A DNA stretch of 64,000 bases, taken from NCBI RefSeq assembly GCF_019038415.1, contig NZ_JAFKRG010000010.1, forward strand, positions 1-64,000, written 5' to 3'. The position numbers and the translations under genes were made by a program. Origin of the DNA: Synechococcus sp. CCY 9618 (GTDB lineage: Bacteria > Cyanobacteriota > Cyanobacteriia > PCC-6307 > Cyanobiaceae). Below, piece after piece: positions 27,234 through 35,851 of this stretch; within the stretch, counting starts at the first letter, position 1; each line of letters begins with the position of its first letter. The notes beneath the pieces are model-generated. The model did no database searches, was not told where the DNA came from, and worked only from the letters and a program-made list of their open reading frames with translations.

Positions 27234-28313
27234 ATGCGCTGCCGCCTGAGCCGCTTTCCCCTCACCAAAGTCGTCCCCCTGGCGATCAGCCGGGGCACCA
27301 CCGCCGCCGTGGAGCACCTGTTGCTGGAGGTGGAGCACGGGGGCCTCACGGGCCTGGGCGAGACCGGCGGCTTCGACACCGGCCACCGGGCCTACGCCAC
27401 CGACGCGCTGGCGACCGAACTGGAGGCCCTGCTGCCCCGGCTGGAGGCCCATGATCCGGAACCGCTCCAGGCCCTCGAGCCCCTGCTGGCGGGCCTCTCG
27501 CCGCCGGCCCGCTGCGCCGTGGACCTGGCCCTGCACGACTGGTGGGGCCAGCGGCTCGGCCAGCCCCTGCGGCGGATCTGGGGGCTCGACGACGGCGCCA
27601 TCAGCGCCACCAGCGTCACCCTCGGCCTGGGCAGCGAGACGGCCGTGCTGGAGCGGCTGGACCGCTGGTGGGCCCAGCTGCCCGCCAGCCGCATCAAGCT
27701 CAAGCTGGGCAGTCCGGAGGGAGTGGACCACGACCGCTCGTTGGTGCAGGCCGTGGCCGGCGCCCTGGAGCGGCGTCGCCAGAGCCACGGCATGGCCTTT
27801 GAGCTGCAGGTGGACGCCAACGGCGGCTGGAGCCTGGAGCAGGCCCGGCCGATGCTGGGCTGGCTGGCGGAGCAGGGGGTGGTGCTGGTGGAGCAGCCCC
27901 TGGCCCCCCTGGCGGATCCGGAGGCCGACAGCGCCGCCTTCGCGGCCCTCGAGCTGGACTGTCCCATCGCCCTGGTGGCGGATGAGAGCTGCTGGAACCT
28001 GGCCGATCTGGTGCGGCTCGCCCCCTATGTCGACGGGGTGAACATCAAGCTGCTGAAGAGCGGCGGCCTGAGTGAGGCCCTGCTGATGGCCCGGGCGGCC
28101 CGGCGCCTGGGCCTGGGGGTGATGCTGGGCTGCTACTCCGACAGCGCCCTGCTCAACGGGGCCGCCGCCCAGCTGCTGCCCCTGACGCGCTGGCCCGATC
28201 TCGACAGCCACCTCAACCTGGTGGACGATCCCTTCGAGGGACTGGGCCTGGACGGGGATCGGCTGGTGCCGCCGTTGGGTGCCGGGCTGGGGGTGAGTCT
28301 TGCTCGCCGCTGA
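27234..28313 (+). CDS. Enolase-superfamily epimerase (dipeptide epimerase / DgcA-like)
   Basis: A 359-residue muconate-lactonizing-subgroup enzyme. The KxK base is Lys145-Leu-Lys147 (RIKLKLG). Metal ligands are Asp184 (LQVDANGGW), Glu210 (VLVEQPL) and Asp240 (LVADESC). The second base is Lys262 (NIKLLKSGG). A C-terminal DxD (Asp312/Asp314 in PDLDSH) resembles the alpha-amino recognition motif of L-Ala-D/L-Glu epimerases. o-Succinylbenzoate synthase (MenC) is an alternative. It overlaps the next gene, a DUF1611 protein, by 14 bp. That pairing is also seen for DgcA (N-acetyl-D-glutamate racemase) and DgcN. Confidence 0.8.
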
Positions 28314-29400
28314 TGCCCCGATCGTGCTGCTGCAGCACCGGGGCCTGGACAACCTGAGCGGCAAGACGGGCCTGGCGATGCTCCGCTACCGCCCCGGACC
28401 GATCGTGGCGGTGGTGGATCCGGTCCATGCGGGCGCCGACCTGCAGGCGGTCACCGGAATCAACCGGGCCGTTCCGGTGGTGGGGTCGCTGCCCGAGGCC
28501 CTGCCCTTCGCTCCGGCGGTGGCGGTGGTGGGCCTGGCCCCCTCGGGGGGCCGGCTGCCCGAGGACATGGCCGTGGATGTGGTCGCCGCCCTGGCGGCAG
28601 GACTCTCGCTGGCCAGCGGTCTGCACAGCCGCCTGGGGGACGATCCCGCCCTGGCCGCCCTGGTGCAGCCGGGCCGCTGGATCTGGGATCTGCGCCGGGA
28701 GCCGCCCGATCTGACCGTGGCCGCCGGGCGTGCCGCCGCGCTGCAGGGCCGCCGCCTGCTGGCGGTGGGCACCGACATGTCGGTGGGAAAGATGAGCGCC
28801 TGCCTGGAGCTGCATGCCGCGGCCCGACGCCGGGGGCTGGATGTCCGCTTCGTCGGCACCGGCCAGGCCGGCATCCTGATCAGTGGCTCCGGTGTCGCCC
28901 TTGACGCCGTGCGGGTGGACTACGCCGCCGGGGCCGTGGAGGCGGCGGTGCTGGCGGCGGCGGCCGCGGCGGGCCCCGCCACTCTGGTGCTGGTGGAAGG
29001 GCAGGGGTCCCTCTGCCACCCGGGCTCGAGCGCCACCCTGCCCCTGATCCGCGGCAGCCAGCCCACGGGTCTGCTGCTGGTGCACCGGGCCGGCCAGCGC
29101 ACGATCCAGCGGCTGGAGTCGATTCCCCTGCCGCCCCTGGATCAGCTGATCACCGCCCTTGAAGCCCTGGCGGCCCTGGCCCGGCCGGCGGAGCCGTTTC
29201 TGCCGCCCCCGCGGGTGGAGGCCATCGCCCTCAACACCGCCCACCTGGACGGGCCGGCGGCGGCGGCGGCCCTGGCGGCCACGGCGGCGGAAACGGGCCT
29301 GCCCTGCTGCGATCCGGTGCGCCAGGGCGGCGAGGGCCTGCTGGAGGCCCTCACCAGGAAGGGGGAAGGGTCGGGCCAGAAAAAAGACCCGACGCCGTAG
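28300..29400 (+). CDS. DUF1611 protein (DgcN-like, possible D-amino-acid N-acetyltransferase)
   Basis: A 366-residue protein. The N-terminal Rossmann-like part begins IVLLQHRGLDNLSGKTG. The C-terminal part has a P-loop-like motif, VGTDMSVGKMSACLEL (near residue 160), and LVEGQGSLCHPGSS. Both are typical of DUF1611. Members include DgcN, which N-acetylates D-glutamate in marine bacteria; whether this protein does so is untested. A TTG at 28300 is the first possible start after an in-frame stop at 28294 and is needed to keep the family N-terminus. Confidence 0.8.
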   Translation: MLAADAPIVLLQHRGLDNLSGKTGLAMLRYRPGPIVAVVDPVHAGADLQAVTGINRAVPVVGSLPEALPFAPAVAVVGLAPSGGRLPEDMAVDVVAALAAGLSLASGLHSRLGDDPALAALVQPGRWIWDLRREPPDLTVAAGRAAALQGRRLLAVGTDMSVGKMSACLELHAAARRRGLDVRFVGTGQAGILISGSGVALDAVRVDYAAGAVEAAVLAAAAAAGPATLVLVEGQGSLCHPGSSATLPLIRGSQPTGLLLVHRAGQRTIQRLESIPLPPLDQLITALEALAALARPAEPFLPPPRVEAIALNTAHLDGPAAAAALAATAAETGLPCCDPVRQGGEGLLEALTRKGEGSGQKKDPTP

Positions 29401-29414
29401 CGCCGGGCCTCAAG

Positions 29415-29488
29415 GGCGAGCGAGGGGACTCGAACCCCCGAATGGTGGCGCCACAAGCCACTGCCTTAACCACTTGGCGACGCCCGCC
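29415..29488 (-). tRNA. tRNA-His(GTG)
   Basis: The acceptor GCGGGCG pairs with CGCTCGC and the anticodon stem GTGGC/GCCAC encloses loop TTGTGGC, giving anticodon GTG. The discriminator is C73 (complement of 29415), and a G at the -1 position (29488) is templated, forming the G-1:C73 identity pair of histidine tRNAs. The T-arm reads GGGGGTTCGAGTCCCC. It lies antisense between the DUF1611 and DUF4359 genes. Confidence 0.95.
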
Positions 29489-29529
29489 GCGATCTTTGCC
29501 AATGTATCAAGCGAGCCTGCCGGCCCTCC

Positions 29530-29964
29530 TTGCCCCCCCCCTCCGCCACCACCCGCACCGTCTCCGGTCTGCTGGGTCTGGCCGCCGTGGCGGGCGGCCT
29601 GCTCGGTCTGGCCGTGACCAACCCCGGTCCCGCGGCCTTCGAGGAGTTCGCCGCCGAGAAACTCACCGAACTGGCCAGCGAGGAGCTCTGCCGCAGCGAT
29701 GGGCTGCCTCTGATGGCCCAACTGCTGATCCATCACTGCCCGGAGCTGGTGCGGTCCCAGCGCAAGGTGCTGGGCCGCCTTGCCCGCGAACATTCGCGCC
29801 GTTACAACTTCGGCCTGCTGAGCCTCTACCGCACCCGGCTGGGCGGTGAGCAGGTGCTGCCGACCTGGCGCATCCCCCGCTACGACGCCCTCACCCTGGC
29901 GGTGGCGGGCCACTTCCTGTTGCTCACCGCCGGAGAGAGCGAGTCCGGCAGCTCCACGCCATGA
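29530..29964 (+). CDS. DUF4359 membrane-anchored protein
   Basis: A 144-residue protein with one N-terminal helix (about 9-29, VSGLLGLAAVAGGLLGLAVT), then NPGPAAFEEFAAEKLTELA and RYNFGLLSLYRT, which match the cyanobacterial DUF4359 family. The function is unknown; the bulk is probably lumenal or periplasmic. The start is a TTG at 29530. Its stop overlaps the next gene's ATG (ATGA at 29961). Confidence 0.75.
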   Translation: MPPPSATTRTVSGLLGLAAVAGGLLGLAVTNPGPAAFEEFAAEKLTELASEELCRSDGLPLMAQLLIHHCPELVRSQRKVLGRLAREHSRRYNFGLLSLYRTRLGGEQVLPTWRIPRYDALTLAVAGHFLLLTAGESESGSSTP

Positions 29965-31277
29965 CCGGGGCATCGCCCCCGACAGGGACCCTGCCGCCGA
30001 TGCGCATTCCCAGGGCCCTGCTCGATCCCCGCTGCCGTCTGCCGGCCGCCGATGATCAGGGGCTGGTGGCGGTGCGACTGGAGCACGCCGACGGTCGGAT
30101 CCAGGCCATCCATGCCGTGGCCGCCGGCCCCGCGGAGGAGTCGCTGTCGGATCCGCATCCCCTGCCGCTGGCGCTCACCCCCCTGGTGGAGCCCCACGCC
30201 CACCTGGACAAGGCCTTCAGCGGCGAGGCCTTTCCCAACCCCGACGGGACCATGGCCGCCGCCATGGAGGCGAACCGGCGGGAGGCCGGCAGCCGCCGGG
30301 CCCAGGTGGTGCACCAGCGTGGGGAACGGGCCCTGGCGCGGGCCTGGCGCTATGGGCTCCGGGCGATCCGCAGCCACATCGACAGCCTGGGCCCCTGGGC
30401 CGCTCCCAGCTGGGAGGTGCTGGTGGAGCTCCGCCGTCAGTGGCGCGGCCGGGTCGAGCTGCAACTGGTGGCGCTGGTGCCCGTCGGCCACTGGTCCACG
30501 GCCGAAGGTGAGGCGCTGGCGGCCTGGGTGGCCTGCCGGGGCGGTCTGCTGGGAGGGGTGCTCGGCGCGCCGTTCCGGTCCACACCGGCCGACCGGAACG
30601 GCCTGCTGGCGCTGCTGCGGCTGGCGGAGCGTCACGGCTGCGGCGTGGATCTGCACGTCGACGAGAGCGTGGAGGACCACGGCCGGGGGGTGGCCCTGGT
30701 GAGCGGCCTGCTGCTGGAGCACCGCATCGCGGTGCCGCTCACCTGCAGCCACGCCAGCAGCATGGGGTTGCTGCCCGACCGACCCTGCCGCCAGCTGGCG
30801 GAGACGATGGCGGCCGCGGGGGTGGGGGTGGTGGCCCTGCCCAGCACCAATCTGTGGCTGCTCGGCAAGCGCCCCGGGCGCACCCCGTCCCTGCGGCCCC
30901 AGGCGCCGATCCGCCAGCTGCAGGAGGCCGGGGTGACCGTGGCGGTGGGGGGCGACAACGTGCAGGACCCCTGGTTCCCGGGCGGGGATTTCGACCCCAT
31001 CGCCCTGCTGCGCTTCAGCCTCGCCTCCAGCCACCTGGCGCCCTGGCGGCGGCTCGGGCTCAGTCCCTTCAGCACCGCCGCGGCCCAGCTGCTCGACCTT
31101 GACTGGGACGGGGTGCTGCGGGAGGGTGCGCCTGCTGACCTCGTGGTGCTCGGAGCGTCGTCATGGGGTGACCTGCTGGCCCGCCCCCCCCGGCGCCGGG
31201 TGCTGCGCTCCGGCCGCTGGCTTGAGCCACCCTCCTCCGAGGAGCCGTCTCCCCTGCTGGTCGCCTGCCATGGATGA
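29961..31277 (+). CDS. Cytosine deaminase-like metal-dependent amidohydrolase
   Basis: A 438-residue amidohydrolase resembling CodA-type deaminases. Metal ligands are in VEPHAHLDKAF (HxH) and IRSHIDSLG; DLHVDESVED, LTCSHASSMG and GGDNVQDPWFPGGDF match the order of cytosine/isoguanine deaminase motifs. The barrel is complete, with a C-terminal composite-domain strand (GAPADLVVLGAS). The substrate is uncertain: an N-heterocycle or cyclic amide is likely. It is coupled to DUF4359 (4-bp overlap) and to the FAD oxidase (8-bp overlap). Confidence 0.85.
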   Translation: MTGASPPTGTLPPMRIPRALLDPRCRLPAADDQGLVAVRLEHADGRIQAIHAVAAGPAEESLSDPHPLPLALTPLVEPHAHLDKAFSGEAFPNPDGTMAAAMEANRREAGSRRAQVVHQRGERALARAWRYGLRAIRSHIDSLGPWAAPSWEVLVELRRQWRGRVELQLVALVPVGHWSTAEGEALAAWVACRGGLLGGVLGAPFRSTPADRNGLLALLRLAERHGCGVDLHVDESVEDHGRGVALVSGLLLEHRIAVPLTCSHASSMGLLPDRPCRQLAETMAAAGVGVVALPSTNLWLLGKRPGRTPSLRPQAPIRQLQEAGVTVAVGGDNVQDPWFPGGDFDPIALLRFSLASSHLAPWRRLGLSPFSTAAAQLLDLDWDGVLREGAPADLVVLGASSWGDLLARPPRRRVLRSGRWLEPPSSEEPSPLLVACHG

Positions 31278-32715
31278 CATCCCCGCCAGCAGCATCCCCG
31301 CCAGCAGCATCACCCCGGCGGGCTTCTCCGACCTGGTGGATCCCAGCCGGATTCAGGCGCTGGTGGCCGAGCTGGCCGCCAGCCCGCTCGGGATCGCCCC
31401 GATCCTGTCCGCCGCCGAGCTGACCCCCCTCTCAGCCGACTCCTACGACTATTCACCTCTGCTGGTTCCTCTGCTGGAGGGCAAGCGGGCCCAGCTGGCG
31501 GTGAGGGCCGACCGTGTGGAGCAGGTTCTGGCGGTGGCCGGGGCCTGCGCCCGCCACCGGGTGCCGCTCACGGTGCGGGGCGCCGGCAGCGGCAACTATG
31601 GCCAGTGCGTTCCGCTGGCCGGTGGCCTGGTGCTCGACCTGACCGGCCTCAACCGCCTGCGGTCCGTGGACCCGGCCAGCGGCGTGGCGGAGGCGGAGCC
31701 CGGCTGCGTGCTGGCCGACCTGGATGGTCTGCTGGCACCCCACGGCCGGGCGCTGCGGCTGGCGCCGAGCACCTACCGCACCGCCACCCTGGGGGGGTTC
31801 ATCGCCGGTGGATCAGGGGGCCTCGGATCGCTGCGCTGGGGGTTCCTGCGCGATCCGGGCCACCTGCTGGGACTGGAGGTGGTGACGCTGGAGGCCGAGC
31901 CCCGGCTGCTGCGGCTCGACGCCGCCGCCAGCGCTCCCCTCAATCACGCCTACGGCACCAACGGCATCCTCACCGCCCTGCGGCTGGCCACCACCGAGAC
32001 CGTGGCCTGGCAGCAGCTGGTGGTGGGCTTCGACGGCTGGGAGGCGGCCCTGGAGGCGGCCCGGGAGCTGCCCGCCACGGCGCTGCTGCTCAACGCTCTC
32101 TGCCTGCTGGAGGCTCCGGTGGCGGTCCGCATGCCCTGGCCGTCGGGCTGCCCCGCCGCCGGCCCCGGCGAGCACCGCCTGCTGCTGCACGCCGCCCCCG
32201 ACACCATGGAGGTGCTGCCGGGGTGGCTGGCGGCCCGGGGGGGGCAGCTGCGCTGGCAGGGGCCGCCGGCGGAGGCTGGGACGCCGAAGGGGGCCCGGGG
32301 GCGAACACTTCCCCTCTGGGAACTCACCTGGAACCACACCACCCTGCACTGGCGTGCCCGGGCCCAGGACTGGACCTACCTGCAGCTGCTGCTGCCCCGG
32401 CCGGAGGCCCCCCTGCTGGAGGCGGTGCGCCGGCGCTGGGGGGCCGATGTGCTCTGGCACCTGGAGGGGGTGCGCCAGCAGGGGACCCCGCGGCTGGTGG
32501 CCCTGCCCCTGCTGCGCTGGCAGGGGCCCCAGGCCCTGGCGGACCTGATCGCCCAGTGCCAGGACCTGGGGGCGGTGCTGTTCAATCCGCACGTGGTCAC
32601 CGTCGAGGACGGCGGCCTGGGGGTGGTGGACGCCGACCAGGTGGCGGCCAAGGCGGCCTACGACCCGGCCGGACTGATGAATCCGGGCAAGCTCAGGGGC
32701 TGGCAGGGGCCTTAG
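31270..32715 (+). CDS. FAD-binding oxidoreductase (PCMH/GlcD-type)
   Basis: 481 residues from the ATG at 31270. The PCMH FAD domain is clear: LTVRGAGSGNYGQCVPLAGG, LDLTGLNRL, LAPSTYRTATLGGFIAGGSG and LRWGFLRDP, followed by a substrate domain and a terminal AYDPAGLMNPGKLRGW, the usual GlcD-family C-terminus. It probably oxidises a 2-hydroxy acid or related compound. It overlaps the amidohydrolase by 8 bp, implying a shared pathway, and converges with the pentapeptide gene (4-bp overlap). Confidence 0.85.
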   Translation: MDDIPASSIPASSITPAGFSDLVDPSRIQALVAELAASPLGIAPILSAAELTPLSADSYDYSPLLVPLLEGKRAQLAVRADRVEQVLAVAGACARHRVPLTVRGAGSGNYGQCVPLAGGLVLDLTGLNRLRSVDPASGVAEAEPGCVLADLDGLLAPHGRALRLAPSTYRTATLGGFIAGGSGGLGSLRWGFLRDPGHLLGLEVVTLEAEPRLLRLDAAASAPLNHAYGTNGILTALRLATTETVAWQQLVVGFDGWEAALEAARELPATALLLNALCLLEAPVAVRMPWPSGCPAAGPGEHRLLLHAAPDTMEVLPGWLAARGGQLRWQGPPAEAGTPKGARGRTLPLWELTWNHTTLHWRARAQDWTYLQLLLPRPEAPLLEAVRRRWGADVLWHLEGVRQQGTPRLVALPLLRWQGPQALADLIAQCQDLGAVLFNPHVVTVEDGGLGVVDADQVAAKAAYDPAGLMNPGKLRGWQGP

Positions 32716-34579: not shown

Positions 34580-35758
34580 TCAGGCCAGGGTGAGCAGGGC
34601 CTTCTCCAGACGCTTCACCGCCTTGCGCAGCTGGCGCGGCTTGATCACCAGGGGGGGCACGAAGCGAACCACGCCAGGGCCGGCGGGCACCACCAGCAGC
34701 CCTTCGGCCATGGCGGCCTTGACCAGCTCCGGGGCGGTGGGCCCGCCGGGCTGGAGCACCAGGCCGCGCAGCAGCCCCCAGCCCCGTTCCCCCGCCAGCT
34801 GCTCGGGATGGCGTGCCACGAGCTCCTGGAGCAGCGTCTGCAGCAGGGCGCCGTGAGCCGCCACCTTGGCCAGCAGGCCGCGGCGTTCGATCTCCTCGAT
34901 CACCGTGAGGCCGGCCCGGCAGGCGAAGGGGTTGCCGCCGAAGGTGCTGGCGTGGTCGCCGGGACGGAAATGATCCACCGCCGCTTTCACCGCCAGGGCG
35001 CCGATGGGGATGCCGCCGCCCAGGCCCTTGGCCATGGTGAGGGCATCGGGTTCGACCCCCAGCTGCTCGTACCCCCACCAGTGGCCGCTGCGGCCGACGC
35101 CGATCTGCACCTCATCGAAGATCAGCAGGATGCGGTGGGCATCGCAGAGTTCCCGCACCCGCCGGAAGAAGGCGGGATCGCCGGGGTTGACGCCCCCTTC
35201 CCCCTGGAGCGGTTCGAGCAGCACGGCCGCCACCCGGGGACCATCGGCCTCGCAGGATTCCAGCAGGGCCTCGAAGGCCGCCGTGTCGTTGTAGGGGAAG
35301 TAGCGGAACCCCGACACCATGGGTTCGAACCCCTGGTGGTACTTGGGCTGGCCGGTGGCGGTGACCGCTGCCAGGGTGCGGCCGTGAAAGCTGGCCTCGG
35401 CGGTCAGGATCAGCGGATCGGCGATGCCGCGCACCTGGTGGCCGTGCTTGCGGGCCAGCTTGATGGCGGCCTCGTTGGCCTCGGCGCCGGAGTTGCAGAA
35501 GAAGACGCGGTCGGCGCAGCTGCGGGCGACGATCGCCGCCGCCAGCTCCTCCTGTTCCGGGATCCGGTAGAGGTTGGAGACGTGCTGGAGCTGCCCCAGC
35601 TGGTCGCAGAGCCGGCGCCGCAACACCGGGTCGCTGTGGCCCAGGGTGCAGACGGCGATGCCGGCGACCATGTCGAGATACCGCCGGCCGCCTTCGTCCC
35701 ACAGCCACACCCCCCGGCCGCGCTTCAGGGCCAGGGGAAACCGGCCGTAGGTGTCCAT
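34580..35758 (-). CDS. argD: Acetylornithine aminotransferase ArgD
   Basis: A 392-residue class III PLP aminotransferase that converts N-acetylglutamate semialdehyde to N-acetylornithine in arginine synthesis. It shows GIAVCTLGHSDP, FFCNSGAEANEAAIKLAR, LLEPLQGEGG, LLIFDEVQ and the PLP Lys in TMAKGLGGGIPIGA. The frame runs open into a tRNA gene, so the ATG at 35758 (MDTYGRFPL) is the start. It lies 11 bp after tRNA-Leu(CAA), on the same strand. Confidence 0.95.
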   Translation of the reverse strand: MDTYGRFPLALKRGRGVWLWDEGGRRYLDMVAGIAVCTLGHSDPVLRRRLCDQLGQLQHVSNLYRIPEQEELAAAIVARSCADRVFFCNSGAEANEAAIKLARKHGHQVRGIADPLILTAEASFHGRTLAAVTATGQPKYHQGFEPMVSGFRYFPYNDTAAFEALLESCEADGPRVAAVLLEPLQGEGGVNPGDPAFFRRVRELCDAHRILLIFDEVQIGVGRSGHWWGYEQLGVEPDALTMAKGLGGGIPIGALAVKAAVDHFRPGDHASTFGGNPFACRAGLTVIEEIERRGLLAKVAAHGALLQTLLQELVARHPEQLAGERGWGLLRGLVLQPGGPTAPELVKAAMAEGLLVVPAGPGVVRFVPPLVIKPRQLRKAVKRLEKALLTLA

Positions 35759-35769
35759 CACCGGGGGGA

Positions 35770-35851
35770 TGGGAGCGGTGGGACTTGAACCCACATGCCC
35801 GAAGGCGCTCGATTTTGAGTCGAGTCCGTCTACCAATTCCGGCACGCTCCC
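35770..35851 (-). tRNA. tRNA-Leu(CAA)
   Basis: A class II tRNA. The acceptor GGGAGCG (5' end at 35851) pairs with CGCTCCC, with A73 (leucine discriminator). The anticodon stem CTCGA/TCGAG holds loop CTCAAAA, anticodon CAA. The long variable arm CGCCTTCGGGCAT follows and the T-arm GGGTTCAAGTCCC is standard. It is squeezed between murA (12 bp) and argD (11 bp), all on one strand, so cotranscription and processing are likely. Confidence 0.95.

Follow-up and report, generated by a model that had tools for sequence, protein, structure and literature searches.

D-glutamate is converted to N-acetyl-L-glutamate by DgcN and DgcA (EC 2.3.1.312 and 5.1.1.25; PMC11747546). Homologues of both proteins are encoded in the window, i.e. 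the whole 64,000-nucleotide stretch of Synechococcus sp. CCY 9618 analysed here, as part of a row of five co-oriented genes: an epimerase (EPI), a DUF1611 protein, a DUF4359 protein, a CodA-like amidohydrolase (AMD) and a flavin adenine dinucleotide-dependent oxidase (FAD). EPI and DUF1611 are hereafter called pair 1, AMD and FAD pair 2. A first-pass annotation had proposed a single catabolic module, an idea that we find unlikely. We propose instead, with a probability of about 0.6, that the segment is old and vertically inherited and houses two enzyme pairs with separate functions, pair 1 being DgcA/DgcN-like and pair 2 a putative amidohydrolase/oxidase couple for an N-heterocycle.

Separate inheritance of the two gene pairs

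We searched 120 genomes of the order, all from a single family, that of the host. Full-length EPI and a syntenic DUF1611 gene were found in the same 59 genomes and both were missing from the other 61 (hypergeometric P of about 1e-35, in a test that ignores phylogeny). AMD is present in 118 of these genomes, FAD in 119 and DUF4359 in 69. AMD and FAD adjoin in all the genomes that were read and are kept even in streamlined genomes of 1.5–1.8 Mb. At two loci read directly, from genomes of 1.6–1.8 Mb (L016 and L017), EPI, DUF1611 and DUF4359 are lost and the order is folC, FAD-AMD, tRNA-His, miaB-ddl. Moreover, remnants lie beside an intact DUF4359/AMD/FAD group in three genomes, i.e. a short piece of EPI (G004), truncated EPI and DUF1611 (G029) and a truncated EPI (G058), and pair 1 and pair 2 are on different contigs in G113. 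From these separate losses, remnants and contigs, it follows that pair 1 and pair 2 are inherited separately. Where the genes are present, synteny is conserved among Cyanobium and Synechococcus genomes, a check that the first-pass annotation had suggested, and the 4-bp overlap of DUF4359 with AMD recurs in several relatives (e.g. L027, L029 and L034).

We then considered a class-wide sample of 145 cyanobacterial genomes from 34 families, in which orthologue counts, tallied from tables, are approximate. Orthologues of FAD occur in about 100 genomes, and those of EPI and of DUF1611 in about 75–80 each, mostly side by side. The two pairs are linked only in the host family and in family f10. Two f10 loci (L009 and L010) repeat the full order EPI-DUF1611-(antisense tRNA-His)-DUF4359-AMD-FAD, which in L009 is broken by two inserted genes, one for a protein kinase and a small one with an ABM domain. 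The f10 proteins share only about 30–53% identity with those of the host and are no closer to them than the proteins of other families, which suggests a shared ancestry of long standing, not a recent transfer. Judged from these sequences, the common location looks like an old inherited segment passed on by vertical descent.

The conserved order could also reflect a single five-gene pathway, in which AMD and FAD would release or trim a compound bearing a D-amino acid that DUF1611 and EPI would then convert to the L form. The recurrence of five genes and tRNA-His in two families of such divergent proteins is consistent with this, as are the co-orientation and the gene overlaps. However, pair 1 was lost independently in half of the host family, the pairs are split in G113 and unlinked in most other cyanobacterial families, and each pair occurs elsewhere without the other: AMD and FAD form an operon of their own in proteobacteria, with no annotated epimerase or DUF1611 gene, and no AMD or FAD was found at the EPI/DUF1611 loci searched outside cyanobacteria. 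A single pathway is therefore improbable.

The five co-oriented genes and the antisense tRNA-His were confirmed with Pfam and ARAGORN (Table 1), and the overlaps of 14 bp (EPI/DUF1611), 4 bp (DUF4359/AMD) and 8 bp (AMD/FAD) had been correctly described. The tRNA does interrupt the row as annotated, but not alone: a terminator-like hairpin of the tRNA-His unit lies inside the 3' end of DUF1611, convergent with this gene (one found where 0.6 are expected by chance). Since EPI-DUF1611 and tRNA-His converge at this hairpin and DUF4359-AMD-FAD begins anew beyond it, transcription is more probably organised in two units than in one. DUF4359 is small and has near its N terminus a helix of the kind that anchors proteins in membranes (residues 7–29; AlphaFold, predicted local distance difference test (pLDDT) 84); a fold search of the PDB gave no confident match, and it is not an evident enzyme. 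The opposite strand carries miaB and ddl upstream of EPI, with ftsQ also in the vicinity, and a pentapeptide-repeat gene, folC, argD and murA downstream of FAD.

Table 1. Features of the five-gene locus and position of argD in the window
Feature	Position	Strand	Basis or remark
EPI, enolase-superfamily (muconate-lactonising type) racemase/epimerase	27234..28313	+	Pfam PF13378/PF02746 (MR_MLE N + C)
DUF1611 protein, 2OBN lineage	28300..29400	+	TTG start; PF17396 + PF07755 (N + C domains)
Terminator-like hairpin of the tRNA-His unit	29384..29411	-	1 found, 0.6 expected by chance
tRNA-His (GTG), antisense, between the two gene pairs	29414..29487	-	ARAGORN
DUF4359	29530..29964	+	PF14271
AMD	29961..31277	+	Pfam Amidohydro_3
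FAD	31270..32715	+	ATG start; PF01565 (FAD_binding_4)
argD	34580..35845	-	Opposite to the five genes

The antisense tRNA-His has the same place as in the window at other loci that carry EPI and DUF1611, among them L009 (9372–9445) and L010 (8202–8275) of family f10, and also in L016 (7417–7490) and L017 (6674–6747), and it stays beside AMD in genomes without EPI and DUF1611. Its position, stable across two families and after the loss of its neighbours, makes it a handy marker of the ancestral segment.

Pair 1 and the DgcA/DgcN lineage

The best NCBIfam model for EPI is DgcA (NF042940; 151 bits for a cut-off of 400) and the only one for DUF1611 is DgcN (NF041892; 226 bits for a cut-off of 480). 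DUF1611 carries both expected Pfam domains (PF17396, 85 bits; PF07755, 222 bits) and a GTDxxxGKx motif in which G157, D159, G163 and K164 are invariant. Its first PDB match is 2OBN (E = 3e-102), followed by 7XRJ (E = 4e-43). In a tree of 79 DUF1611 rows, the EPI-paired proteins form their own clade (100/97) that includes 2OBN and is sister to the DgcN clade (99/90, with L108), inside which 7XRJ groups with the Ruegeria DgcN that it matches. In the EPI tree (49 rows), where the branch of the MenC outgroup is very long and its position unreliable, DgcA, YcjG and dipeptide epimerases make up a supported clade (100/99), with DgcA and YcjG interleaved inside, to which the EPI proteins do not belong. 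On these trees, EPI/DUF1611 and the characterised DgcA/DgcN pair are separate lineages. In addition, EPI precedes DUF1611, the reverse of dgcN then dgcA, although adjacency is shared. The DgcA/DgcN pairing named by the first-pass annotation is thus supported as homology and not as membership. Its expectation that EPI is not MenC was borne out, while the enolase-superfamily tree did not place EPI among the DgcA, YcjG and dipeptide-epimerase proteins. We rejected MenC as an identity for EPI because the window gene reaches only 27.8 bits against the MenC model, compared with 119.5 bits for a separate MenC gene of the same genome (G000:C43).

If pair 1 were nevertheless a true DgcN/DgcA system, D-glutamate would be turned into N-acetyl-D-glutamate and then into N-acetyl-L-glutamate, feeding arginine synthesis. 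Both partners are homologous to that system, with DgcA and DgcN as their leading models, and EPI conserves the equivalent of R24, an arginine that binds the glutamate side chain in dipeptide epimerases. We nevertheless regard this as doubtful, given scores under both curated cut-offs, separate supported clades for both proteins, the reversed gene order, a 50s loop of EPI that is unlike those of both DgcA and YcjG, and no link to argD elsewhere. In the window itself, the suggested connection with argD was rejected as a matter of proximity: the gene runs against the five genes of the row, and the folC-argD-murA block, like the ddl-miaB vicinity, persists in genomes without EPI and DUF1611.

Alternatively, EPI might be a dipeptide epimerase of murein-peptide recycling, with DUF1611 as an accessory. 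EPI carries the KxK motif, the D/E/D metal ligands and the opposite Lys, as two-base racemisation requires, together with the R24 equivalent and a C-terminal DxD, and its best PDB match is the Bacteroides enzyme 3IJI, a dipeptide epimerase; ddl and ftsQ are also in the vicinity, on the other strand. However, KxK, the metal ligands, the Lys and DxD are common to DgcA and YcjG and cannot separate the two functions. The DxD, previously thought to favour a dipeptide epimerase, was rejected as a sign of a muropeptide enzyme, since the annotated Ruegeria DgcA carries it too and DgcA and YcjG intermingle in the EPI tree. Furthermore, EPI strictly co-occurs with DUF1611, scores 95 bits against the YcjG model PRK15129 (cut-off 343), and has no murein-peptide gene next to it, neither a murein amidase nor a tripeptide-binding gene, whereas mpaA and mppA adjoin ycjG in the comparison locus. 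With the ddl-miaB vicinity retained where pair 1 is absent, this explanation is very unlikely.

Beyond cyanobacteria, the order EPI then DUF1611 was also found in Planctomycetota, Bacteroidota, Verrucomicrobiota, Armatimonadota, Myxococcota and Pseudomonadota, several of these being metagenome bins. In two Rhodobacteraceae (L091, 2–5035; L095, 1–5035), genes for a class-III aminotransferase, a BKACE protein, a GNAT protein and a histone-deacetylase-type deacylase precede EPI and DUF1611 at the operon end; the GNAT, deacylase and aminotransferase neighbours fit an N-acylation/deacylation chemistry of amino acids. The neighbours in Bacteroidota are sugar-transport or beta-lactamase-fold genes with no pattern, and no consistent third partner was found in other cyanobacteria. 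A Pantoea plasmid (L111, 1–5280) carries dgcN-dgcA immediately downstream of rut pyrimidine-utilisation genes.

The same genome contains a second DUF1611 gene (G000:C9:136996-138000; loci L002 and L003), which overlaps a gene for an ornithine-racemase-like pyridoxal phosphate (PLP) protein. This second DUF1611 lineage is followed by the PLP protein (314–392 bits for a cut-off of 480) in families f1, f2, f10, f12 and f15, and by an enolase-type racemase in f13 and f33 (L118–L121). The racemase fold is thus swapped beside a constant partner, and DUF1611 partners with racemases of two unrelated folds. A PLP racemase requires a free amino group, so the order of acylation and racemisation must differ between the two DUF1611 partnerships.

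We read pair 1 as a putative unit for the acetyl-CoA-dependent N-acylation and the racemisation of a D-amino acid. DUF1611 would move an acetyl (or acyl) group from coenzyme A (CoA) onto the amino group of the D-amino acid, and EPI, passing the alpha-proton between its pair of lysines, would yield the N-acyl-L-amino acid. The substrate would most likely be D-glutamate or another acidic D-amino acid, making pair 1 a D-amino-acid salvage step. With this predicted role, EPI/DUF1611 would extend D-amino-acid salvage past the characterised DgcN/DgcA to a multi-phylum lineage that has a structure, 2OBN.

Pair 2 and its operons in other bacteria

AMD scores 262 bits against PRK07583 (cut-off 403) and retains H61, H63, H214, E217, H246 and D313 of Escherichia coli CodA, i.e. 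the metal ligands and proton shuttles. In the window protein, Q156 is replaced by Pro and D314 by Asn. Among FAD-paired members from cyanobacteria to rhizobia, F154, Q156 and D314 are replaced in 17 out of 17, with Pro, Ser or Arg at 156 and always Asn at 314. Q156 and D314 are the cytosine-recognition residues of CodA. Cytosine deaminase was rejected as an identity for AMD on account of these two replacements and of the score below the cut-off. The predicted structure (pLDDT 88) is closest to the 5-methylcytosine deaminase 4R88 and to cytosine deaminases, then to AtzC.

For FAD, the best PDB match is 6V42/6V43 (E = 4e-84), over nearly the full length, while GlcD-type entries match only the N-terminal half (about 1e-14 to 1e-11). 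Glycolate oxidase GlcD was rejected: FAD reaches 80 bits against this model (cut-off 568), and FAD_binding_4 was the only domain found, with no C-terminal FAD-oxidase domain. A literature search for the function of 6V42 or of the AMD/FAD operon returned nothing. FAD is retained in G086, where AMD is missing, and no amidohydrolase partner of FAD was detected in four f32 genomes (G200, G218, G226 and G237). Because FAD occurs in this way without AMD, it may be more central than its partner.

At all nine proteobacterial plasmid loci read (L004–L007 and L130–L134, the neighbours of the last five being identified from annotation only), the FAD gene is accompanied by ABC importer genes and by genes for an amidohydrolase, a creatininase-family protein and RidA; seven also have a flavin-type oxidoreductase. 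The importer is of the NMT1 type, and several loci encode a RutR-like regulator (146 bits for a cut-off of 368). AMD and FAD are the core of this undescribed proteobacterial operon. NMT1-type importer genes also adjoin AMD-FAD in two other cyanobacterial families (L013 and L014), but the binding protein of the importer had no full-length match in the 120 picocyanobacterial genomes.

We infer that the operon serves an N-heterocycle pathway, of which the picocyanobacterial remnant would act on an internal metabolite. AMD would hydrolyse an amine or amide group carried by a small N-heterocycle other than cytosine, and FAD would carry out an FAD-dependent oxidation of the product of AMD or of its precursor. 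In proteobacteria and the two other cyanobacterial families, the substrate would be imported by the NMT1-type transporter; since this transporter is absent from picocyanobacteria, the substrate there is probably internal or enters in another way. A metabolic unit of two genes that picocyanobacteria with 1.5–1.8 Mb genomes have not discarded is the most interesting element of the locus. Such picocyanobacteria count among Earth's most abundant photosynthetic cells, so the reaction probably takes place on a large scale.

Weighing the reading against known systems

Some points weigh against two separate pairs with the proposed roles. A functional link would explain the shared order in f10 equally well as inheritance does. 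The distinct 50s loop of EPI suggests a substrate possibly other than glutamate. N-acylation may not be the general role of DUF1611, given that a related lineage is partnered by a PLP racemase, an enzyme unable to use N-acyl amino acids. A more far-reaching version is put forward only tentatively: AMD and FAD would carry out a step, so far undescribed, in the salvage or repair of an N-heterocycle formed inside the cell; nearly all picocyanobacteria, those with the most streamlined genomes included, would have kept it when they lost the catabolic version linked to an importer. EPI/DUF1611 would then be another widespread system for D-amino acids, distinct from that of DgcA/DgcN.

Compared with the Rut pathway, the proteobacterial AMD/FAD operons share RidA and, in several cases, a RutR-like regulator and a flavin-type oxidoreductase, but no RutA or RutB-D is annotated in them and the RutR-like protein scores well below its cut-off. 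AMD resembles CodA and 5-methylcytosine deaminase (1K6W and 4R88) in predicted fold, metal ligands and proton shuttles, and differs from them at F154, Q156 and D314 and in its score against PRK07583. FAD aligns over almost its whole length with 6V42/6V43, titled "FAD/FMN-containing dehydrogenase". The L-Ala-D/L-Glu epimerases YcjG and YkfB share their fold and catalytic residues with EPI, which lies outside the YcjG/DgcA clade, below the YcjG cut-off and away from murein-recycling neighbours. Known from structure only and titled "hypothetical protein", 2OBN belongs to the same DUF1611 lineage as the window protein, in the same clade, where it groups with Nostocaceae proteins. Finally, pair 1 departs from DgcN/DgcA in clade, gene order, NCBIfam scores and 50s loop, but has in common with it the same two protein families encoded side by side, the racemase residues including KxK and DxD, and the GTDxxxGKx motif of DUF1611.

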